Positions 1 to 8,289 of a DNA stretch of 34,359 nt are shown here, in pieces. The stretch covers positions 1 to 34,359 of the forward strand of contig VBMV01000080.1 of assembly GCA_005878835.1 (NCBI GenBank), read 5' to 3'. Position 1 is the first letter of the stretch. Each line of letters starts with the position of its first letter. The stretch is from Gammaproteobacteria bacterium. Lineage in GTDB: Bacteria > Pseudomonadota > Gammaproteobacteria > Steroidobacterales > Steroidobacteraceae. The notes beneath the pieces are model-generated. The model saw only the letters and a list, made by a program, of their open reading frames with translations. It was not told the DNA's origin and did no database searches. The position numbers and the translations under genes are program-made.

Positions 1-1388
1 CGCGCGGCCGATGCAAAGCTCACGATCTGCTCCGGACTCTTCACCCCGGGGCGCACCTCGACACCGCTCGACACGTCGACCCCGAAGGGCTGCACGGCGC
101 CGATGGCGGCGGCCACGTTGCCGCTGTTGAGACCACCCGCGAGCACCAGCTGCGTGCAACGCGCGAGACGGCGGGCGGCGGCCCAGTCGCCCGCCACGCC
201 GGTGCCGCTCACGGGCCCTTCAAAGAGGATCCGGCCCGGCAGGGTTGCGGGCGCATCATCCCCATCACGCACCACCGGCAGCAGACCCAGGCCGGCCGGC
301 AGTTGCAGCCGCGCGAGATCGGACAGGTCCGTCTGCAACAGGTCCGGGCTGAACACCTTCAGGATCTCATCCACCGCGGCCTGGGCCGGATGCCGGGTCA
401 CCGCCACGCAGCGCACCCGCCCGCGCGCGGCCTGCGCCAGGCGCGCGGCACGCTGCGGCGTCAGCCGCCGCGACGACTCGGCGAACACGAATCCGATGGC
501 ATCCACGCCCGCCTCGAGCGCCGCGCTCACCGCCTCGGGAGTGGTCATGCCGCAGATCTTGACCTTGGCCGCCGCTCGTCCCGCCGCCAGCACCGCCGCG
601 GCGAGCCCCTGCGGATCCTCGGCCTGCATCAGCGCGCCGCCGACGAGCGCCAGCTGGTAGCCGGCCGCAACGAGCTGCCGCGCATCCGCAGCCGTCGCCA
701 CGCCGCTTTCCGCGACCCGTGGCGTGCCCGTGGGCAGGAGCGGCGCGAGCTCGAGCAGCCGCTGCGGCAGCACCTGCATCGTCGCGAGGTCGCGGCAATT
801 CACGCCCGCGAGCAACCGGTTCGCGCCCGCGTGCGCCTCGATCAGCTCGCACACGAGCTCGAGGTCGCGCGCGTCGAAGGCTTCCAGCAGCACGAACAGT
901 CCGAGCGCACGGGCGCAGGCGAGCAGCGCATCGATCGCGCTGCGCGACAACATGCGCACGATCACCAGTACCCCGCCCGCGCCCGCGGCGCGCGCCTCCA
1001 GCACCTGGTAGGGATCCACCAGAAAGTCCTTGCGCATGGCGGGAACCGCGTGCGGCGCCAGCGCCCGCGCGGCGCTCGCCAGATGCTCGAGTGAGCCATC
1101 GAAGCGGCTCGGCTCGGTGAGTACCGAGATCGCGGCCGCCCCGGCGCGCGCGTACGCCGTGACGCGTGCCGCCACGTCCTCGGCCCGCGGACCCAGCCGC
1201 CCCGAGCCCGGCGAGCGCAGTTTCACTTCCGCGATGAGATCGAAGCCGGAACGGTCGAGGCGCAAGGGTGGCGGCGCGGGGCTCTCCCGGGCCGCGGCCT
1301 CGAGCGCGCTTTCCGAGCGGGTCTGCTTCGCCGCCCGCACCCGCTCGCGGCTGGCCTCCGCCATCTCATCAAGAAACGCGCCCCTCAC
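1..1388 (-). CDS. trpCF: Bifunctional indole-3-glycerol-phosphate synthase / phosphoribosylanthranilate isomerase (TrpC-TrpF fusion), 3' end cut by the window
   Basis: Catalyses two consecutive cytoplasmic steps of tryptophan synthesis: isomerisation of phosphoribosylanthranilate (TrpF) and ring closure to indole-3-glycerol phosphate (TrpC). The frame opens at GTG 1388-1386, overlapping the trpD stop as GTGA, and stays open to base 1, giving about 462 residues; E. coli TrpCF is 453, so little is missing. The TrpC half shows IAEVKLRSPGSG, AMRKDFLVDPYQV, GVNCRDL, RVAESGV and ALVGGALM. The TrpF half begins around residue 276 with KVKICGMTTPE and continues with GFVFAESSRRL, LAGGLNSGNV and FGVDVSSGVE. 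I checked the codon phase at 1388, 1037, 953, 659 and 548 and found no stop or shift, so the two domains are one polypeptide with a very short linker. Last visible gene of the trp operon. Confidence 0.93.
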   Translation of the reverse strand, partial: MRGAFLDEMAEASRERVRAAKQTRSESALEAAARESPAPPPLRLDRSGFDLIAEVKLRSPGSGRLGPRAEDVAARVTAYARAGAAAISVLTEPSRFDGSLEHLASAARALAPHAVPAMRKDFLVDPYQVLEARAAGAGGVLVIVRMLSRSAIDALLACARALGLFVLLEAFDARDLELVCELIEAHAGANRLLAGVNCRDLATMQVLPQRLLELAPLLPTGTPRVAESGVATAADARQLVAAGYQLALVGGALMQAEDPQGLAAAVLAAGRAAAKVKICGMTTPEAVSAALEAGVDAIGFVFAESSRRLTPQRAARLAQAARGRVRCVAVTRHPAQAAVDEILKVFSPDLLQTDLSDLARLQLPAGLGLLPVVRDGDDAPATLPGRILFEGPVSGTGVAGDWAAARRLARCTQLVLAGGLNSGNVAAAIGAVQPFGVDVSSGVEVRPGVKSPEQIVSFASAA

Positions 1389-2422
1389 GGCTTGCGCTCC
1401 CCGTCGGGCCGCCGTGCTTTGAGCGCCTCGAGCAAGCGGCGCGCGGCGCCGGAGTCGATGGCGGCGGCGGCGCGCGCCAGGCCCTCGCGGGGCGCACGCG
1501 TCTCCCCGGCAAGCTCGAGCGCCAGCGCGGTACCCAACAGCAGACAATCGCGATGCGCGCCGCGATCCTCGCCGTACAGCACCGCCGCGAGCGCGCGCGC
1601 ATTGTGCGCGGCGTCGCCTCCGGCCAGATCACTCGCGCTGCAGGGAGCGAGTCCGTACTGCGACGGCGCGCGCACCTGCATCTCGACGCGCCCGGGGCGC
1701 ACATCGAACAGCGTGAACGGACCTGCGGGCGTGGGCTCATCCCACCCGAGCGCGCCGTGCACGACGAAGGCGCGCTCCATGGGCAGACCCTGGAACGTGT
1801 CGGCGATGAGCCGCGCGACCTCCACACTGAACGCGCCCACCAGATGCAGCGGGGGCTGCGCGGGATTGACCAGGGGGCCGAGGATGTTGAACACGGTGCG
1901 CACGCCGAGCGCGGCGCGAATCGGGGCGATCGCCCTGGTGGCCGGATGGTAGTGAGGCGCAAACAGGAAAGTGAAGCCGGTGGCCTCGAGACAGGCCAGC
2001 GCGGCCGGCGCATCGGGCGGAATCGCCAGCCCCAGGGCTTCGAGCACGTCCGCGCTGCCGCAGCGGCTCGAGACCGAGCGGTTGCCGTGCTTGACCACCG
2101 GCACGCCGCAGGCGGCGGTCAGGAGCGCGGTGCCGGTGGAGATGTTGAAGCTTCCGGAGGCATCACCGCCGGTGCCGACGATGTCGAGGGCGCGCAGGCC
2201 CGCGGGCAGCTCGGGCCGGTGCGCCAGGCGGCGCATCGCCTGCGCGAAGCCCCGCACTTCATCGGCCACCAGGCCCTTGGTCGAGAGCGCCGCGAGCAAC
2301 GCCCCCGCCATCGCGGGCGGCAGCTGCGGGTCGGTCAGGTGAGCGAGCAGCTCCTCGGCCTGCGCCTGCGACAGGTCGCGGCGCTCGAGGAGCTGCTGCA
2401 GCAGCTCACGCGCGAGCGCCAT
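1385..2422 (-). CDS. trpD: Anthranilate phosphoribosyltransferase
   Basis: Transfers the phosphoribosyl group of PRPP to anthranilate, the second step of tryptophan synthesis, in the cytoplasm. The 345-residue protein has the usual family length. Diagnostic motifs are GTGGD at residues 83-87 (PRPP binding), SFNIST at 91-96 and KHGNRSVSS at 111-119. The start is ATG 2422-2420, which lies 17 bases inside the 3' end of trpG, and the stop TGA overlaps the GTG start of trpCF. Translation is therefore probably coupled on both sides. It is a separate gene here, not fused to trpG as in enterics. The motif set leaves little room for another identity; the related nucleoside phosphorylases lack this combination. 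Confidence 0.97.
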   Translation of the reverse strand: MALARELLQQLLERRDLSQAQAEELLAHLTDPQLPPAMAGALLAALSTKGLVADEVRGFAQAMRRLAHRPELPAGLRALDIVGTGGDASGSFNISTGTALLTAACGVPVVKHGNRSVSSRCGSADVLEALGLAIPPDAPAALACLEATGFTFLFAPHYHPATRAIAPIRAALGVRTVFNILGPLVNPAQPPLHLVGAFSVEVARLIADTFQGLPMERAFVVHGALGWDEPTPAGPFTLFDVRPGRVEMQVRAPSQYGLAPCSASDLAGGDAAHNARALAAVLYGEDRGAHRDCLLLGTALALELAGETRAPREGLARAAAAIDSGAARRLLEALKARRPDGERKP

Positions 2423-3035
2423 TGCCTGCTCCGGGCGCGGCGTGCGCGGCGCGCTCGCCGGCGGTGTACTTCAGGAAATTGCCCAGCAGCCGTGGACCCT
2501 CGGGCGTGAGGATGCTCTCGGGATGAAACTGCACGCCCTCCACCACCAGCGTGCGGTGGCGCACCGCCATGATCTCCGCTTCCGCGGTCTGCGCACTCAC
2601 CTCGAGCTGCGCGGGCAGCCTCCCGGGAGCGGCGATCAATGAATGGTAGCGCCCCACCTCGCACGGCTGCGGCAGACCCTCGAACAGCGTGCGCTGATCG
2701 TGACGGATGAGCGAGGTCTTGCCGTGCATGAGCCGATCGGCCCGCACGACCTTGCCACCGAACACTTCCACGATGGCCTGGTGTCCGAGGCAAACACCCA
2801 GCACCGGGATACGGCCGGCGAAGGCGCGGATCATGTCCATGGACACGCCCGCATCGTACGGCGTCCCGGGACCGGGCGAGATGCACAGGTGCGAGGGTGC
2901 GAGCGAGCACGCCTCCTGCGGGGTGAGCGCGTCGTTGCGGTAGACGCTCACCTCAGCTCCCAGGACCAGGAACGCCTGCACCAGGTTGTAGGTGAAGGAG
3001 TCGTAGTTGTCGATCAGCAGCAGGCGCGGCTTCAC
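2406..3035 (-). CDS. trpG: Anthranilate synthase glutamine amidotransferase component
   Basis: Class I glutamine amidotransferase that hydrolyses glutamine and passes ammonia to TrpE for anthranilate formation. The 209-residue protein shows LLIDNYDSFTYN at the N-terminus, the oxyanion loop SPGPGTP, the nucleophile in GVCLGHQ (Cys82) and the HPES motif (His171, Glu173), which complete the catalytic triad. The start is GTG 3035-3033, overlapping the trpE stop as GTGA. By sequence alone such proteins can also serve PabB in folate synthesis (PabA). Its position between trpE and trpD makes the tryptophan role primary, but dual use is possible because no pab gene is visible here. The C-terminal 20 or so residues are Ala-rich and probably flexible. 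Confidence 0.96.
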   Translation of the reverse strand: MKPRLLLIDNYDSFTYNLVQAFLVLGAEVSVYRNDALTPQEACSLAPSHLCISPGPGTPYDAGVSMDMIRAFAGRIPVLGVCLGHQAIVEVFGGKVVRADRLMHGKTSLIRHDQRTLFEGLPQPCEVGRYHSLIAAPGRLPAQLEVSAQTAEAEIMAVRHRTLVVEGVQFHPESILTPEGPRLLGNFLKYTAGERAAHAAPGAGNGARA

Positions 3036-4417
3036 AAGCCCTCCCCGGCGAGCTCGAGCGCGCGCACCAGGGCCGCGCTCTTGGCCAGCACCTCTTCGTG
3101 CTCGCTCTCGGGCACGCTGTCGGCGACGATGCCGGCGCCGGCCTGGTAGCTGTACTCGTCGCCCGAGAACACCAGGGTGCGGATGGTGATGGCGTGATCC
3201 ATGTCGCCGCGGGCGCCGAAGTAGCCCACCGTGCCGCCATACAGGCCGCGATTCACCGGCTCGAGCTCATCGATGATCTGCATGGCGCGCACCTTGGGCG
3301 CACCCACCAGTGTGCCGGCCGGAAAGGCCGCGGCGAACAGATCGAAGGCATCGCGATCGGCGGCCAGCTCGCCGTGCACGCCGCTCACCATGTGCATCAC
3401 GTGACTGTAGCGCTCGATCGAGCGGTAAGGCTCCACGCGCACGCTGCCGGCGCGCGCCACGCGCCCGAGGTCGTTGCGCGCCAGGTCCACCAGCATCACG
3501 TGCTCGGCGTTCTCCTTGGGATCGGCGAGCAGCTGCGCTTCGCGCGCGCGGTCGGTGGCGGCATCGGGCGAGCGCGGCCGGGTGCCGGCGATGGGCCGCA
3601 GCTGCGCGCAGCGCCCGTTGAGCTTCACCAGCGCCTCAGGAGAGGAGCCCACCACCGCCACCTCCCCGAGCGCGCAGTAGTACATGTAAGGGGAGGGATT
3701 GATCAGCCGCAGCGCGCGATACGCCTGGAACGGATCGAGCTCGTGGCGGCCCGAGAAGCGGCTCGCCAGCACCAGCTGGTAGACATCGCCCGCGGCAATG
3801 TACTCCTGGGTGCGCCGCACGCCGGCCATGTACTCGGCGCGTGCGTAGGCCGTGGTCGGCGGGGCGTAACGGCCGCGGCGCCGGCCGTTGGGCAGCGCGC
3901 CGCGCAGCGCGCGCACCACTTCCTGGCGCAGCGAGCGGCGCTCGGCTTCCGCGCCGGCATGAAGCAGCGCGATGCCGCGCGTCAGGTGATCGAACACCAG
4001 CACCGAGCGCGGCGCCACGTAGTGCAGCGCCGGCGCGCCGCCGACACCCGCCGCGCGCGCCGGCAGGCGCTCGAAGTAGCGCACCACGTCGTAGGCTGCA
4101 TAGCCGACGAGTCCCCCCGCGAGCGGTACGCCGGCGATATCGGGCTGCGGCCTGGGTGCCCGTCCGAGCGCCGCCCGCAACGCCGCGAGCAGCTCGGCGC
4201 CGGAGGCGGGAGCCGGCCGGCGCTCGTCGCCGATCGTGAGCCCTGCGCCATCGAGCCGCACCTCCATGCCGTCGCCGAAACCGATGAACGAGTAACGCGC
4301 CAGCCGCTCGCCGCCCTCGACGCTCTCGAGGAGGAAGCGCGGCGCGAAGGCGGCGAGCTTCATGAACGCCGACACCGGCGTGTCGAGATCACCGGTTATG
4401 TCGAAGGGTGGTTGCAA
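3032..4417 (-). CDS. trpE: Anthranilate synthase component I
   Basis: Converts chorismate and ammonia to anthranilate, the committed step of tryptophan synthesis, together with TrpG. The 461-residue protein is slightly shorter than most TrpE. It carries DLDTPVSAF near the N-terminus, the LLES motif (residues 29-32) associated with tryptophan feedback inhibition, and the chorismate-binding core with IAGTRPRS, DPKENAEHVMLVDLARND and GLYGGTVGYF. The start is assigned to TTG 4417-4415. Upstream in this frame there is no ATG or GTG before a TGA lying inside the attenuator, and GGAG sits 10 bases before the TTG. Residues 1-12 already resemble the family start. The gene begins 33 bases after the attenuator T-run, so its transcription depends on read-through of that terminator. 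Confidence 0.95.
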   Translation of the reverse strand: MQPPFDITGDLDTPVSAFMKLAAFAPRFLLESVEGGERLARYSFIGFGDGMEVRLDGAGLTIGDERRPAPASGAELLAALRAALGRAPRPQPDIAGVPLAGGLVGYAAYDVVRYFERLPARAAGVGGAPALHYVAPRSVLVFDHLTRGIALLHAGAEAERRSLRQEVVRALRGALPNGRRRGRYAPPTTAYARAEYMAGVRRTQEYIAAGDVYQLVLASRFSGRHELDPFQAYRALRLINPSPYMYYCALGEVAVVGSSPEALVKLNGRCAQLRPIAGTRPRSPDAATDRAREAQLLADPKENAEHVMLVDLARNDLGRVARAGSVRVEPYRSIERYSHVMHMVSGVHGELAADRDAFDLFAAAFPAGTLVGAPKVRAMQIIDELEPVNRGLYGGTVGYFGARGDMDHAITIRTLVFSGDEYSYQAGAGIVADSVPESEHEEVLAKSAALVRALELAGEGL

Positions 4418-4450
4418 CGCTGCAGGACTCCAAACGTGGATCGGAACAAC

Positions 4451-4485
4451 AAAAAACCCATCCCGGGGTCATCCGGAGATGGGTT
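4451..4485 (-). terminator. trp attenuator (intrinsic terminator upstream of trpE)
   Basis: On the minus strand the arms AACCCATC (4485-4478) and GATGGGTT (4462-4455) pair over 8 bp. An inner CCGG (4476-4473) pairs with CCGG (4466-4463) across the six-base loop ATGACC, with one bulged T. The hairpin runs straight into TTTTTT and then GTTGTT. It lies between the trpL stop and trpE, so it would stop transcription before the structural genes when tryptophan is plentiful. Confidence 0.9.
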
Positions 4486-4546
4486 TCTGGTGCCGTAAAA
4501 GAGTTCTTTAAGTCGCGAGAAACAAACCAGCCGTCAGCCCACTCCG
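4474..4546 (-). promoter_or_regulatory. trp antiterminator pairing region
   Basis: Directly after the trpL stop codon the transcript reads CGGAGTGGG (4546-4538). This can pair over 9 bp with CCCATCTCCG (4483-4474), with one U bulged, and the latter covers the whole 5' arm of the terminator. The two pairings exclude each other. A ribosome stalled on the three Trp codons leaves CGGAGTGGG free and would favour read-through. A ribosome that reaches the TAA covers it and would allow termination. The pairing is read directly from the sequence; the mechanism is the established enteric trp model applied here. Confidence 0.8.
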
Positions 4547-4600
4547 TTATGAGGGGCGCCACCACCAGGAACGCGAAGCGCTGACGGGCTGCTGCGACAT
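4547..4600 (-). CDS. trpL: trp operon leader peptide with three consecutive Trp codons
   Basis: A 17-residue open frame, MSQQPVSASRSWWWRPS, starts at ATG 4600-4598 and ends at TAA 4549-4547. Codons 12-14 (4567-4559) are TGG TGG TGG, which is very unlikely by chance in a 17-codon frame placed just before a terminator and trpE. The peptide is a sensor of charged tRNA-Trp rather than a functional product. The stop lies immediately before the antiterminator arm, the geometry needed for attenuation. A GGAG occurs at 4606-4603 but only two bases before the ATG, which is too close for normal use. A promoter-like pair at 4637-4608 would place the transcription start at about the A of the ATG, so initiation may be leaderless. 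Confidence 0.88.
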   Translation of the reverse strand: MSQQPVSASRSWWWRPS

Positions 4601-4607
4601 GGCTCCG

Positions 4608-4637
4608 AGTATCACCGTCGGGCGGTTGGGACGTCAA
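4608..4637 (-). promoter_or_regulatory. Candidate trp operon promoter
   Basis: On the minus strand a TTGACG (4637-4632, five of six to the sigma-70 -35 consensus) is followed after 18 bases by GATACT (4613-4608, four of six to the -10 consensus). The expected start point falls at about 4601-4600, the first base of trpL. I see no TrpR-type operator with confidence. A promoter further upstream is not excluded. Confidence 0.4.
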
Positions 4638-4866
4638 GCGAAACGCTGCGCGCCGTGCGCGGCGGTGGCGCGAGCCCTCATCGTCGACCTGACTCAGACC
4701 GACCCTTACACGTATCTCGGCGAGCGGTGAACCGTCCCCACGCGGCCGCCGATCCCGGCGCGCGCCGCGGGAGGCGCAGAGAGCCTCGGGCGAGGCGCCG
4801 ATGCACGGCGCCCCGACCTCGAGCTGCAGTTGCGAATCGTCGCCTCGCGCGACCGCCCTGGAACCG

Positions 4867-5229
4867 CTACTTCAGGCACACGGCTTCGACGTTGTTGCCG
4901 TCCGGATCAAACAGGAACGCGGCGTAGTAGGTCGGGCTGTAGTCCCGCCGCATACCCGGCGCGCCGTTGTCGCGCCCGCGCGCCTTGAGCCCTTCGCGAT
5001 GGAACGCATCGACCGCCGCACGGCTGCCGGCCGTGAACGCCAGGTGCACCAGCGAGTGGGCGAGCTTCGCGTCCGCATACAGCCACAGCGACGAGTTGCC
5101 GCGGGAGCCGAAGGCCGCGGTCGACTCGTCCTGCGAGGTGGCCTCGTAGCCAAGCGGCGCCAGAGCCATGGTGTAGAAGCGCACGCTGGCATCCAGATCC
5201 TTCACCCTCAAACCGATGTGATCGAACAT
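4867..5229 (-). CDS. VOC superfamily (glyoxalase/bleomycin-resistance/dioxygenase fold) protein
   Basis: A 120-residue cytoplasmic protein of the vicinal oxygen chelate fold. It opens with MFDHIGLRVKDLDASVRFY, the first beta-alpha-beta unit with a probable metal ligand in DHIGL, and ends with AAFLFDPDGNNVEAVC, which carries the typical acidic metal ligand near the C-terminus. The length matches one VOC module of two paired motifs, so a dimer is likely. The start is ATG 5229-5227, preceded by a strong AGGAGG six bases upstream. The substrate cannot be told from sequence: members include glyoxalase I, fosfomycin or bleomycin resistance proteins and dioxygenases. It lies upstream of the trp promoter on the same strand but is separated from trpL by more than 260 bases, so it is not obviously part of that operon. 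Confidence 0.85.
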   Translation of the reverse strand: MFDHIGLRVKDLDASVRFYTMALAPLGYEATSQDESTAAFGSRGNSSLWLYADAKLAHSLVHLAFTAGSRAAVDAFHREGLKARGRDNGAPGMRRDYSPTYYAAFLFDPDGNNVEAVCLK

Positions 5230-5364
5230 GAAACCCTCCTGGCCCCACCACCCGGTCGTTCGATGCTACCGCGCGTGGGCGCGCCGTCACAACCGCGCCG
5301 GGGCGCGCACGCTTTCCGCTAGAATGCGCGCCCGGGCCCTTGAGGCCGGCGGGGTGGTCTGCAG

Positions 5365-5754
5365 GTGAGTTTCAAGGAGTTGCTCGACAGCTGGCGCGAG
5401 CGGGCGGCCGCGCCGCGCACCGCCAAGGTCTACGCCGTGCGGCTGCCGGTGGATGATGCCGCGCGGCTCGCGGCGCTCGCGGAGATGTTTCCCGGGCGCG
5501 CGCCCGAGCAGCTCATCACCGAGCTGCTGGGCGCGGCTCTCAGGGAAATCGCCGCCGCGATGCCCTACGTCGCGGGTAAGCGGGTGATCGCCACCGACGA
5601 GCAGGGCGATCCGGTTTACGAGGACGCCGGCCCCACACCGCGCTTCATGGAGCTCGCGCGCAAGCATCGCCGCGAGCTCGAACCGCGGACGGGTCCCGCG
5701 AGGCGCGCGAAGCCGGCGCGCAAGGCCGCAAAGCCAGGGCGGCGCCGCAGCTGA
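5365..5754 (+). CDS. Conserved small protein of unknown function
   Basis: A 129-residue protein beginning with MSFKELLDSWRERAA from GTG 5365. The middle reads YAVRLPVDDAARLAALAEM and EQLITELLGAALREI, which looks like a short beta strand followed by two amphipathic helices, a plan reminiscent of ribbon-helix-helix proteins. PRFMELARKHRREL follows, and the last 30 or so residues are a basic tail rich in Lys, Arg and Ala. I recall similar proteins in pseudomonads and xanthomonads, sometimes labelled as pilin assembly or pilus tip components, but I see nothing here supporting that label. It lies 8 bases before yajQ on the same strand, so the two are probably co-transcribed. The basic tail would suit nucleic acid contact. 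Function is unknown. Confidence 0.8.
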   Translation: MSFKELLDSWRERAAAPRTAKVYAVRLPVDDAARLAALAEMFPGRAPEQLITELLGAALREIAAAMPYVAGKRVIATDEQGDPVYEDAGPTPRFMELARKHRRELEPRTGPARRAKPARKAAKPGRRRS

Positions 5755-5762
5755 GGTCCCCG

Positions 5763-6245
5763 ATGCCCTCCTTCGACACCGTTTCCGAGCTCAACGCCCA
5801 CGAGGTCGCCAACGCGCTCGACCAGGCAAACCGCGAGCTGGCGCAGCGCTTCGACTTCAAGGACACGGGCGCGCGCTTCGAGTTGCAGGAGCTCACCGTA
5901 ACCCTGCACGCGCAGGTGGACTTTCAGCTCAAGCAGATGCTGGAGATCCTCAAGCTGCGCCTCTCCAAGCGCGGCGTCGACCTCGCGTGCCTCGAGGTGA
6001 AGGAGCCGCAGACCAGCCTCTCGGCCGCGCACCAGGAAGTGGTGCTGCGGCACGGCATCGATCAGGACACCGGCAGAACGATCATGCGCCTCGTCAAGGA
6101 CTCCAAGCTCAAGGTGCAGGCGAGTCTGCAGGGCGACAAGGTGCGCATCAGCGGCAAGCAGCGCGATGAGCTGCAGGCGGCGATCGCGCTGCTGCGCGGC
6201 GCGAAGCTCGACGTGCCGCTGCAGTTCAACAATTTCCGCGACTGA
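5763..6245 (+). CDS. yajQ: YajQ family nucleotide-binding protein
   Basis: A 160-residue cytoplasmic protein matching the YajQ (UPF0234) family over its full length. It starts with MPSFDTVSELNAHEV, continues with FDFKDTGARFEL and VLRHGIDQDTGRTIMRLVKDSK, and ends in DVPLQFNNFRD, the family's typical terminus. YajQ proteins have two ferredoxin-like domains. They bind nucleotides or RNA, and a Xanthomonas member has been described as a cyclic-di-GMP receptor that acts with a transcription factor. Whether this protein binds cyclic-di-GMP cannot be seen from the sequence. Start ATG 5763 follows the preceding gene by 8 bases and that gene's end supplies a weak GAGG. Downstream lies a strong hairpin shared with the convergent gene. 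Confidence 0.95.
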   Translation: MPSFDTVSELNAHEVANALDQANRELAQRFDFKDTGARFELQELTVTLHAQVDFQLKQMLEILKLRLSKRGVDLACLEVKEPQTSLSAAHQEVVLRHGIDQDTGRTIMRLVKDSKLKVQASLQGDKVRISGKQRDELQAAIALLRGAKLDVPLQFNNFRD

Positions 6246-6260
6246 TAGTGTCGCGCCGCG

Positions 6261-6288
6261 CGTGCAGCGCTGCGGTCAGCGCTGCACG
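6261..6288. terminator. Perfect 12-bp hairpin between convergent genes
   Basis: CGTGCAGCGCTG (6261-6272) and CAGCGCTGCACG (6277-6288) are exact inverted copies separated by CGGT. The hairpin begins 15 bases after the yajQ stop and contains the stop codon and last codons of the opposite gene. There is no T-run on either strand, so it may be a transcript-end stabiliser or a Rho-aided bidirectional terminator rather than a classical intrinsic one. Confidence 0.5.
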
Positions 6289-6620
6289 TGGCTCACAAAG
6301 AAATACGCGACCCCGAGGAGCAGCGCGAACTGCCCCATGATCGCCCCGTACATGTGGCGCACGCTGCTGGTCATGGCGGCGTGAAAATCGCTTTGGCTCA
6401 GCTTCCCCTCGACCTCGTGACGCAGCCCCGTCATCTCCGACTTCAGTTCGGTGCGCAGCTCCGCGATCTCATGCCGCAGGATCAGGATGTCCTGCTTGGT
6501 GGCGAGGGTGTCCTTCGCCCCGGCGATCTCGATCTCGATCGCCTGCACGATGGCGCGCGCCTGCGCGGGCGGGACGGCGGCCTTGTCCAGGATTTCGAGC
6601 GATGCGGCTTGCACGGCCAT
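6276..6620 (-). CDS. Coiled-coil protein with a C-terminal membrane anchor (DUF1640/CCDC90-like)
   Basis: A 114-residue protein. Residues 1-35 are helical and include VPPAQARAIVQAIEIEI. Residues 38-75 form a heptad-rich coiled coil (TKQDILILRHEIAELRTEL). The last 25 residues, with MGQFALLLGVAYFF, form one transmembrane helix followed by SHVQR. This plan matches bacterial DUF1640/CCDC90-like proteins, relatives of the mitochondrial MCUR1/CCDC90 family, whose bacterial role is unknown. The coiled coil would project into the cytoplasm and oligomerise. The start ATG 6620-6618 follows a GAGG nine bases upstream and sits at the edge of a 9-bp inverted repeat (6621-6672). Convergent with yajQ. The family assignment is from pattern and is moderately secure. 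Confidence 0.75.
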   Translation of the reverse strand: MAVQAASLEILDKAAVPPAQARAIVQAIEIEIAGAKDTLATKQDILILRHEIAELRTELKSEMTGLRHEVEGKLSQSDFHAAMTSSVRHMYGAIMGQFALLLGVAYFFVSHVQR

Positions 6621-6672
6621 CCAGCATAGCCTCGATGGACTTCGGCGGCGAGCTTACAGAGCCCTATGCTGG
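6621..6672. repeat. 9-bp inverted repeat flanking the promoter region of the coiled-coil gene
   Basis: CCAGCATAG (6621-6629) and CTATGCTGG (6664-6672) are exact inverted copies with centres about 43 bases apart. One arm touches the start codon of the gene at 6276-6620. The spacing is close to four helical turns, which would suit a dimeric regulator binding two half-sites or a long-stem leader RNA. No known regulator is recognised. Confidence 0.45.
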
Positions 6673-6683
6673 AGGACAGCGGC

Positions 6684-6716
6684 AAAAAGCAGCGCGATCG
6701 TGCGGATTTGCCGCAC
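6684..6716 (-). terminator. Possible terminator downstream of btuF
   Basis: Just after the btuF stop the minus strand reads GTGCGG (6716-6711), CAAAT, CCGCAC (6705-6700), a 6-bp stem, and 11 bases later TTTTT (6688-6684). The T-run is detached from the stem, so this is a weak intrinsic terminator candidate. Confidence 0.35.
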
Positions 6717-6717
6717 G

Positions 6718-7659
6718 CTAATCGCCACGGCGCACGCCGCCATCACGCACCCGCGCGAGGGTGCGGCACAGCGCCTCGGTCGCGTCGACGACGCTCGGTC
6801 CCAGGCGGCTCAGTGCCTGGTCCTCGAACACCACCAGCCGCCCGCTGCGCACCGCCGTCAGAGTCGCGAATCGCTTCCAGTCGGCGAGCCACGCCGCGCC
6901 TTCCCCCGGCGGCGCCGCCGCGATGATGATGTCGGGATCGCGGGCGATGACCGCCTCGGTATCCACCAGCGGGCCGGCTTCCGGCAGGTCGGCGAACACG
7001 TTGCGCGCGCCGCAGATCTCGAGCGCATCGCTCATGAGGTGCCGACCGCCCACCGTGTAGATGGGGCGATTCCAGACCTGCAGCAGCACGGCCGGCGCTC
7101 TGCCGGCGCCGGCCGCGCCGTAGGTGCGCTTCAGCGCGGCGAAGCGCGTTTCGATGTCGTGCGCGGCGCGCTCGGCCGCGGCCGCGGTGCCGGCGAGCGC
7201 GCCCAGGCGTCGCACCGAGACCGGCAGGTCCGCCAGCCGCACCACCTGCTGTTCGTAGACCGGGATGTGGAGTCGTGCGATTTTCTCGCGCTGCGCGGGA
7301 TTGCCGCCCGCCGGCCACGCCACCACCACGTCTGGCCGCAGCGCGACCAGACGCTCCATGTCGACCGCGGCCACATCCCCGATGCGCAGCACGCGCCGCG
7401 CCGCCGGCGGCTCATCGGAATACTCGACGGTTGCGATCAGCTCCCCGCCCGCGCCCGCGGCGAACAGCATCTCGGTGGCGCCGGGCGTGAGGCTCACGAT
7501 GCGCAGCGGGGGCTCGCGAACCGTGACCTGGCGACCCGAGTCGTCCGACACGGTGTGTGCCGCGGACGCAGGCCCGACACCGAGCCCGAGACACAGCGTC
7601 AGCGCCAGGACAGCCAACGATCTGATGGCAATCGACAAACGTCCAACCGGTGTGCACAT
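6718..7659 (-). CDS. btuF: BtuF-like periplasmic cobalamin/iron-chelate binding protein
   Basis: Solute-binding protein of the Fhu/Btu class III family. It binds vitamin B12 or another metal chelate in the periplasm and delivers it to an ABC importer. From ATG 7659 the product is 313 residues, with a Sec signal (hydrophobic AVLALTLCLGLGV, likely cleavage after ASA). Family features are RIVSLTPGATEMLFAAG, DVAAVDMERLVALRPDVVVAW, GRHLMSDALEICGARNVF and DTEAVIARDPDIII. The longer frame to 7713 adds an unlikely Arg/Gly-rich segment, so I chose the downstream ATG; a TTG seven codons further on is also possible. No permease or ATPase gene is adjacent, so the partner must lie elsewhere, and siderophore or haem specificity is not excluded. 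It follows ahpD by 66 bases on the same strand. Confidence 0.82.
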   Translation of the reverse strand: MCTPVGRLSIAIRSLAVLALTLCLGLGVGPASAAHTVSDDSGRQVTVREPPLRIVSLTPGATEMLFAAGAGGELIATVEYSDEPPAARRVLRIGDVAAVDMERLVALRPDVVVAWPAGGNPAQREKIARLHIPVYEQQVVRLADLPVSVRRLGALAGTAAAAERAAHDIETRFAALKRTYGAAGAGRAPAVLLQVWNRPIYTVGGRHLMSDALEICGARNVFADLPEAGPLVDTEAVIARDPDIIIAAAPPGEGAAWLADWKRFATLTAVRSGRLVVFEDQALSRLGPSVVDATEALCRTLARVRDGGVRRGD

Positions 7660-7725
7660 GACCGGTCGCCATGGTCCGCAATTTCCCGCGCCAGCGCGAG
7701 AGACCCGCGGCAAGGCCCAGGGCCT

Positions 7726-8289
7726 TCAGGCCGCCACCGCCTTGCCCATGCTCTCCCCGCTCACGCTCTCCAGCACCCGCGCCACGGCATGCACCGTCGC
7801 CGCGATGCGCACCGCGCTCTGCACCGCCTCACGCGCCAGCCCGTGCTGGCGCAGTTGCCGTTCGTGCGAGGCGACGCAACTTCCGCAGCCATTGATCGCC
7901 GATACCGCGAGCGAGAGCAGCTCGAAGTCCGCCGTGGCGATGCCGGGTGCGCCGATGACGTTCATGCGCAGGCGCGCCGGAAGCTTCGCGTACTCCGGAT
8001 CCTCCACCAGGTGCAGGAAGCGGTAGTAGACGTTGTTCATGGCCATGATGGCGGCGGCGGCGTGCGCGGCGCTCACGTGCGCGGCGTCGAGGTGCCGTGC
8101 CGCCAGCGCCTGGAATCGTAAGCTGAAGGCCGGGTTACGCGAGGCGGCGGCCGCGGCGAGCGCCACCGCCCAGATCTGCCGCTCGCTGAGGCCGGGCGCT
8201 CCGGCCGGCGTGAGTACCGTGCCGAGGTTCAGCTGCAGGTCGCGCGCGTAGCCCGGCAGCGCCTCACGAATGTCCTCCAGAGTGCTCAC
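7726..8289 (-). CDS. ahpD: Alkylhydroperoxidase AhpD
   Basis: Disulfide reductase and peroxidase that recycles AhpC, as in Mycobacterium tuberculosis. From GTG 8289 the protein has 187 residues. It carries the active-site run INGCGSCVASHE with Cys135 and Cys138, His142, and the upstream Glu123 in DFELLSLAVS, the same set as the proton-relay residues known in the family. The start is placed at GTG 8289, one base after the ahpC stop; the longer frame only adds out-of-family residues that overlap ahpC. The ahpC-ahpD order and tight spacing indicate one operon and stoichiometric expression, probably under OxyR through the operator upstream of ahpC. Cytoplasmic, normally a homotrimer. Confidence 0.95.
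   Translation of the reverse strand: MSTLEDIREALPGYARDLQLNLGTVLTPAGAPGLSERQIWAVALAAAAASRNPAFSLRFQALAARHLDAAHVSAAHAAAAIMAMNNVYYRFLHLVEDPEYAKLPARLRMNVIGAPGIATADFELLSLAVSAINGCGSCVASHERQLRQHGLAREAVQSAVRIAATVHAVARVLESVSGESMGKAVAA

Follow-up and report, generated by a model that had tools for sequence, protein, structure and literature searches.

We report that positions 4600 to 4451 of the window, meaning the whole 34,359-nucleotide stretch analysed here (contig VBMV01000080.1 of assembly GCA_005878835.1, from an uncultivated gammaproteobacterium of the family Steroidobacteraceae), hold what we regard with high confidence as a transcription attenuator that controls the trpEGDC(F) operon by means of a translating ribosome and an intrinsic terminator. 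The element lies on the minus strand ahead of trpE, and its parts, their mutual exclusivity and their conservation are read from the sequence and from comparison with relatives. Its layout is that of a classical four-segment attenuator, as in the enteric attenuator, in which the pairings 1:2, 2:3 and 3:4 exclude one another. It is a conserved example of a principle that is already known, and its modestly interesting trait is that the leader peptide is probably leaderless or nearly so, the transcription start being predicted from the position of a conserved promoter. The parts of the leader RNA are as follows.

4547..4600, minus strand: leader peptide frame MSQQPVSASRSWWWRPS followed by its stop, 17 codons (direct reading and translation; kept in relatives).
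4559..4567, minus strand: three Trp codons TGG TGG TGG, codons 12-14, the proposed sensor (direct reading).
4570..4593, minus strand: segment 1, lying within the leader frame and forming the 5' side of protector hairpin 1:2 (fold, swap test).
4526..4547, minus strand: segment 2 with its 3' extension, the partner of segment 1 (fold, swap test, pair counts).
4546-4538, minus strand: antiterminator arm of segment 2, CGGAGTGGG, which pairs with segment 3 (fold, swap test, pair counts).
4473..4487, minus strand: segment 3, 5' arm of the terminator (fold, pair counts).
4483-4474, minus strand: antiterminator partner CCCATCTCCG within segment 3 (fold, pair counts).
4453..4466, minus strand: segment 4, 3' arm of the terminator (fold, pair counts).
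4451..4456, minus strand: T6, the terminator's U-tract, which overlaps segment 4 at its base (direct reading).

The 150-nucleotide (nt) leader folds at -60.6 kcal/mol (z -2.99), a value equalled by one of 200 dinucleotide shuffles, and its minimum-energy fold consists of a long leader hairpin, 1:2, together with the terminator. In that fold 1:2 joins 4593-4580 with 4538-4526 (interrupted) and 4578-4570 with 4547-4540, thereby sequestering segment 2, while the antiterminator 2:3, exclusive of the terminator, comprises nine pairs with one bulged U (4479). The intrinsic terminator (4487-4453) lies between the leader frame and trpE and is built of 10 outer pairs, one bulged base and 4 inner pairs, followed by T6. 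An earlier sequence-only reading of this DNA had proposed that trpE is preceded by a trp attenuator whose leader peptide contains WWW, and this is borne out by the frame and by the trp genes downstream. Its coordinates hold, as do its 17-codon frame, which occupies 4600-4547, its Trp codons 12-14 (4567-4559), its 9-bp antiterminator, now with the bulged U added, and the placement of the antiterminator arm right after the leader stop, the TAA at 4549-4547 directly adjoining 4546-4538. For the terminator, the 4-bp inner stem and T6 stood and the 8-bp outer stem did not, 10 outer pairs being counted. The claim of only two pairing alternatives, in a layout more compact than the enteric one, was wrong: with 1:2 as a third mutually exclusive pairing in the most stable fold, the element is a classical four-segment attenuator. 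Both the 1:2 pairing and the conserved promoter were absent from that reading.

The comparison with relatives drew on TrpE searches of 99 genomes from the order (own genome included) and of a public genome collection (best 80 matches listed). Upstream DNA was covered for 82 of the 99, the other 17 having no listed match that covers the start of an orthologous trpE. The short frame with clustered Trp codons predicted from the window's sequence recurs upstream of trpE in 76 of these 82 genomes, four of them (L023, L140, L143, L144) assigned by hand after the automatic search had missed them; start codons were likewise set by hand in L021, L023, L041, L140, L143 and L144 (GTG starts, W-R-W, nested frames). 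The others are a locus at a contig edge (L028), one with an assembly gap (NN) inside the leader in which ..LWWWRTS and its stop are yet visible (L158), one with no leader upstream of trpE (L155), and three from family f12 whose TrpE is only 47-51% identical (L160-L162). Among the best 80 matches listed, all 26 named contigs with TrpE identity of at least 62% carry the leader; 21 are first occurrences and 5 duplicates, and ten have leaders identical to ones in the 82. The comparison of orthologous leaders suggested by the sequence-only reading thus came out in its favour, with Trp codons kept and, as described below, pairs covarying. The 91 unique leaders start with ATG in 87 cases and GTG in 4, and their longest Trp run is WWW in 61, WW in 27 and a single W (W-R-W) in 3. 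In 71 of the 76 leader-bearing regions the frame is followed by a terminator whose T-run is 4 or longer. Automatic terminator finding missed or misplaced several hairpins and was redone; L016 has T3 in the redone finding and T6 in the first, and L145 scored poorly though a hairpin followed by TTCTTTTT is visible. A covariance model built from the leaders matches in 50 of 60 genomes (own included), on some of which it was trained. In the own 4.18-Mb assembly the pattern ATACT, 3-12 nt, ATG, 9-39 nt, TGGTGG occurs at one place (two overlapping matches), and its reversed-pattern control gives 0 matches. As a class-wide detector this pattern was rejected as unspecific, since 342 of 369 class genomes match and controls often do too.

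The pairings were examined in 37 representatives with pairwise similarity under 0.75, from which L145 was dropped because of its poor score in terminator finding. In a swap test, each arm was paired computationally with its own partner and with the partners from other genomes, and the duplex energies were compared. Summed over the 37, own partners win, with z of -3.7 for the outer and -3.8 for the inner helix of 1:2, -5.4 for 2:3 and -13.5 for 3:4, in statistics that ignore the relatedness of the genomes. Covariation was scored in an alignment of 39 sequences (A1), which comprises L012, L014, L048 and 36 representatives, all but L049. The score of 3:4 is 0.211 against 0.158 for shuffles, none of 500 of which was as high (best slid control 0.172), and 9 of its 14 pairs have changed on both sides. 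For 2:3 the score is 0.138 against 0.103, with 3 of 500 shuffles as high (best slid control 0.094), and in the region between the Trp codons and the terminator 2:3 is stronger than in dinucleotide shuffles in 27 of 37 representatives (mean z -2.8). The 1:2 pairing recurs in relatives, and its sequestration of segment 2, present in the window's fold, is weaker by single-genome shuffles there; the swap test was applied to it because the shuffle test reaches significance in only 24 of 89 leaders. By comparison, 1:2 is less well supported than the other pairings.

The distance from the last Trp codon to the start of segment 2 is 9-14 nt in 33 of 37 representatives, as against 448 of 3700 shuffles (12%). 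The position of the stop codon in the relatives ranges between 4 nt ahead of the start of segment 2 and about 40 nt beyond it: in 34 of 89 leaders the stop precedes or touches that start, and the other 55 have frames that extend into segment 2 or through it. Because the distance from Trp codons to segment 2 is nearly fixed while the stop drifts, these data support the stalled position, and not the stop codon, as the probable chief constraint. Segment 2 would presumably also be covered by a ribosome that translates through it.

Switching was then computed. A first fold simulation that left upstream RNA free never formed the antiterminator and was redone with downstream RNA only, the stalled ribosome having its A site on any of the Trp codons and covering about 11 nt beyond. 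In this model, and with this assumed footprint, a ribosome at the Trp codons leaves segment 2 free and one at the stop covers it. With the ribosome stalled, the computed P(2:3) is 0.98 as segment 3 emerges and 0.73-0.97 at nt 140, and 2:3 yields to 3:4 by nt 144, when about 10 of the 14 bases of the 3' arm have been made; with the ribosome at the stop, P(3:4) is 0.94 in the complete leader. The proposal that ribosome position can decide between the folds therefore holds in the computed model, with downstream RNA only. Folding the transcript with and without a block on 4546-4538, the check that the sequence-only reading had put forward, does not discriminate (P(3:4) 0.98 both ways), because 3:4 is the more stable at equilibrium.

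The leader is preceded by a sigma-70-like promoter, whose elements are:

4632..4637, minus strand: -35 element TTGACG (sigma-70-like site).
4608..4613, minus strand: -10 element GATACT, 18 nt after the -35 (sigma-70-like site; conserved -10).

TTGACG-18-GATACT at 4637-4608 is the only such site found in positions 1-8000, where 0.2 are expected. With 7 nt between the end of its -10 and the AUG, transcription is predicted to start near 4600-4602, at the leader start codon. The promoter conserved in relatives reads TTGAC, a spacer of about 17-18 nt and ATACT; TTGAC is present in 64 of the 91 unique leaders, and in 65 the start codon has a -35/-10 pair with a score of 8 or 9 out of 12 ahead of it, a score of 9 being reached by 0.7% of shuffled flanks. 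The promoter reading is weaker in the remaining 26, because their promoter is degenerate (score 6 of 12) and their flank different, with TATTGTA...GATAGG in many. A clear -10 (ATACT in 29, GTACT in one) is present in 30 of the 37 divergent representatives, where it ends 6-11 nt ahead of the start codon; it is this position that points to a leaderless or nearly leaderless peptide. A column scan of the 5' flank of the 37, with the 7 that match the -10 poorly set aside for column statistics, found no conserved stretch beyond -35 and -10, a TrpR operator not having been scanned for with a model.

From these parts we infer the start site, the stalling, the termination event and the response to tryptophan as follows. 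RNA polymerase would begin transcription at the AUG at 4600 or no more than a few bases away from it, and a ribosome would load onto the leaderless, or nearly leaderless, mRNA. When charged tRNA-Trp is scarce, the ribosome would stall on codons 12-14 and break 1:2, with segment 2 (4546-4538) just beyond its leading edge; segment 2 would then capture segment 3 before segment 4 is made, and transcription would continue into trpE. When tryptophan is plentiful, the ribosome would reach the UAA at 4549-4547 and cover segment 2, so that 3:4 could form and transcription stop at the T-tract. If the leader is untranslated, 1:2 would hold segment 2 and termination would result as well.

Several points weigh against this reading, the ignored relatedness in the swap test among them. 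Through the assumed footprint of about 11 nt, the model already implies a free segment 2 with the ribosome on the Trp codons and a covered one with it on the stop, and P(2:3) drops to 0 in all scenarios once upstream RNA may pair across the ribosome. With 3:4 at -22.3 and 2:3 at -11.7, the terminator is the more stable at equilibrium, and antitermination must therefore be kinetic, as it is in E. coli trp. Single genomes carry little of the swap signal, the own partner ranking in the best 5% in only 6, 6, 3 and 13 of 37 (1:2 outer, 1:2 inner, 2:3, 3:4). For each of the two 1:2 helices, the 5000 permutations included at least one that equalled the true pairing. The shuffle result for 1:2 in relatives belongs here too, as do the 4 doubly changed pairs of 2:3, which are unexceptional (60 of 500 shuffles as high). 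No covariance-model match was found in 10 of the 60 genomes, and L136 and L137 (family f11) keep WWW without a terminator T-run, even after terminators were redone. The window has no match to the Rfam trp leader: none was found there at gathering score, and a search of 4400-4700 with E up to 10 returned a single weak, unrelated match on the other strand. As an observation on L136, its full-length fold pairs GGAGGAGG before trpE with CCTCCTCC just upstream, a pairing not seen when the post-leader RNA is folded alone; the pattern in L136 and L137 may reflect a shift to translational control.

The leader might instead sense translation generally, or tryptophan might act mainly elsewhere, for example through TrpR at the promoter, leaving the Trp codons a minor role. 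The genome does encode a TrpR homologue, so tryptophan could act at the promoter as well, and leader peptides vary freely outside their Trp codons; yet the Trp cluster is the constant element of all 91 unique leaders, its distance to segment 2 is nearly fixed, and the 5' flank shows no further conserved stretch in the scan above, which makes this account very unlikely in our view. We give almost no credence to a constitutive or relic element, in which the terminator would stand between trpE and a spurious frame and read-through would not be conditional. Short WW frames can arise by chance, and by one fixed criterion one lies upstream of trpE at 7 of 54 distant loci from other phyla, but the same criterion finds it at 99 of 108 near loci (the order plus named relatives, where those that fail include W-R-W leaders), and the three exclusive pairings are kept across the order.

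A further variant is compatible with attenuation and concerns the start of the RNA: transcription would begin further upstream, and the leader would be translated from a Shine-Dalgarno (SD) site, CGGAG at 4607-4603. It could draw on the GGAG at 4606-4603, on SD-like matches of 4-5 nt within 20 nt upstream of 25 of the 91 leaders, and on the 26 leaders with a degenerate promoter. The GGAG, however, ends only 2 nt before the AUG, the SD-like match is 3 nt or none in 66 of the 91 leaders, whereas it is at least 4 nt at 66 of the 91 trpE starts, and the -10 keeps its place 6-11 nt before the start codon in 30 of the 37 divergent leaders. We consider this variant unlikely, and retain attenuation with a probably leaderless leader peptide.

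The window is contig 25 of a 186-contig assembly with an estimated completeness of 95%, in which no 16S match was found. Downstream of the attenuator the minus strand carries trpE, trpG, trpD and a trpC-trpF frame, in that order:

3032..4417, minus strand: trpE, anthranilate synthase component I, 461 aa, TTG start (profile matches).
2406..3035, minus strand: trpG, glutamine amidotransferase (profile matches).
1385..2422, minus strand: trpD, anthranilate phosphoribosyltransferase (profile matches).
3..1547, minus strand: trpC-trpF, a single open frame with an IGPS and then a PRAI domain (runs off the contig end).

The best model for the trpE product, TIGR00564, scores 467 bits, below its curated cut-off of 518, and both Pfam anthranilate synthase domains score above theirs. 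The true start of trpC-trpF lies inside the frame 3..1547; its IGPS and PRAI domains share one frame in a fusion-like arrangement truncated by the contig end. A TrpR-family gene is present in the own genome at G000:C43:29900-30142, and in 44 of the 60 genomes searched (own included).

A covariance-model search of 369 class genomes, with only 8 candidates scored per genome, found a match in 24. Outside the order, most matches cover the terminator part only, and three are full-length: one trp-like (L174) and two poly-Val (L171, L182). The L174 leader, on the reverse strand of a genome from another order, has TTGACT, TAGTAT, 8 nt, ATG, a WWW frame and a terminator, and precedes a trpE/pabB-like gene (41% identity over part); as it looks leaderless too, the trait may be wider. 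L171 and L182 have Val-codon-rich leader frames and a terminator upstream of what, guessing from its first residues, is a putative acetolactate synthase-like gene. Short W-rich frames occur in 19 of 60 upstream regions from other gammaproteobacterial families (L230, L231, L237, L242, L245, L249, L278, L281 and others). Many of them end in or near WRWR or WW and have a CGATGG motif. They lie roughly 80-130 nt before a different trpE, about 45-50% identical, and mostly lack, as judged by eye, the promoter of the window's leader; they are apparently another kind of trp leader. WWW frames about 250-350 nt upstream of trpE in L077, L087 and L110, metagenome-assembled genomes titled Deltaproteobacteria or Desulfobacteria, are possibly trp leaders of their own.

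Among known systems, E. coli trpL has the same four segments, with Trp codons in a short leader frame, 1:2, 2:3 and 3:4 pairings, a stop codon beside segment 2, an intrinsic terminator and control of trpE. The window differs in having three adjacent Trp codons where E. coli has two, in a leader that probably lacks a 5' untranslated region and SD site, and in showing no similarity to the enteric attenuator that Rfam models detect. The general principle of trp attenuation as in E. coli is set out in passages of PMC7298713, according to which trpL of Sinorhizobium meliloti begins at the 5' end of its RNA (rnTrpL); its attenuation before trpE(G) resembles that proposed here. That system is alphaproteobacterial, with trpE(G) as one of three trp operons, and the same passages report functions in trans for the rnTrpL RNA and its peptide (PMC7298713). 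Streptomyces lividans trpL1, an 18-aa leader MFAHSTRNWWWTAHPAAH, is described in PMC8079986 as leaderless, with WWW, upstream of trpE; the likeness is one of description, not of sequence comparison, and the system is actinobacterial with a monocistronic trpE. Classical trp attenuators with double or triple UGG codons and GC-rich terminators have been predicted by comparison in Corynebacterium and Streptomyces, of another phylum, in a study whose main text does not contain the word 'leaderless' (PMC1262725). The TrpL of C. jejuni has a single Trp codon (PMC3847290, PMC11955535), and a survey of premature terminators mentions trp in connection with NusA (PMC2965389). Leaderless trp leaders are thus already documented in Sinorhizobium and Streptomyces. 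Among the titles and abstracts listed by searches of open-access literature there was none on such a leader from Gammaproteobacteria; absence from print is not claimed.

Overall, the finding adds an apparently leaderless trp attenuator of the classical type that is spread across one gammaproteobacterial order; the textbook case of this class, E. coli, has a leadered trp leader. Aside from this trait, the regulation appears ordinary. The 91 unique natural variants suit a test of which spacing matters, that between Trp codons and segment 2, which is nearly fixed, or that between stop and segment 2, which is variable. Tentatively, and with more doubt than conviction, one may go further and suppose that the whole order controls its trp operon with an attenuator that is obligatorily leaderless. 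Ribosomes loading at the 5' end would take the place of SD initiation, the distance from Trp codons to segment 2 would be the ruler under constraint, and the stop could drift freely through segment 2. If that were true, the terminated RNA of about 150 nt would be a free leaderless mRNA, which could act in trans like rnTrpL and its peptide peTrpL.
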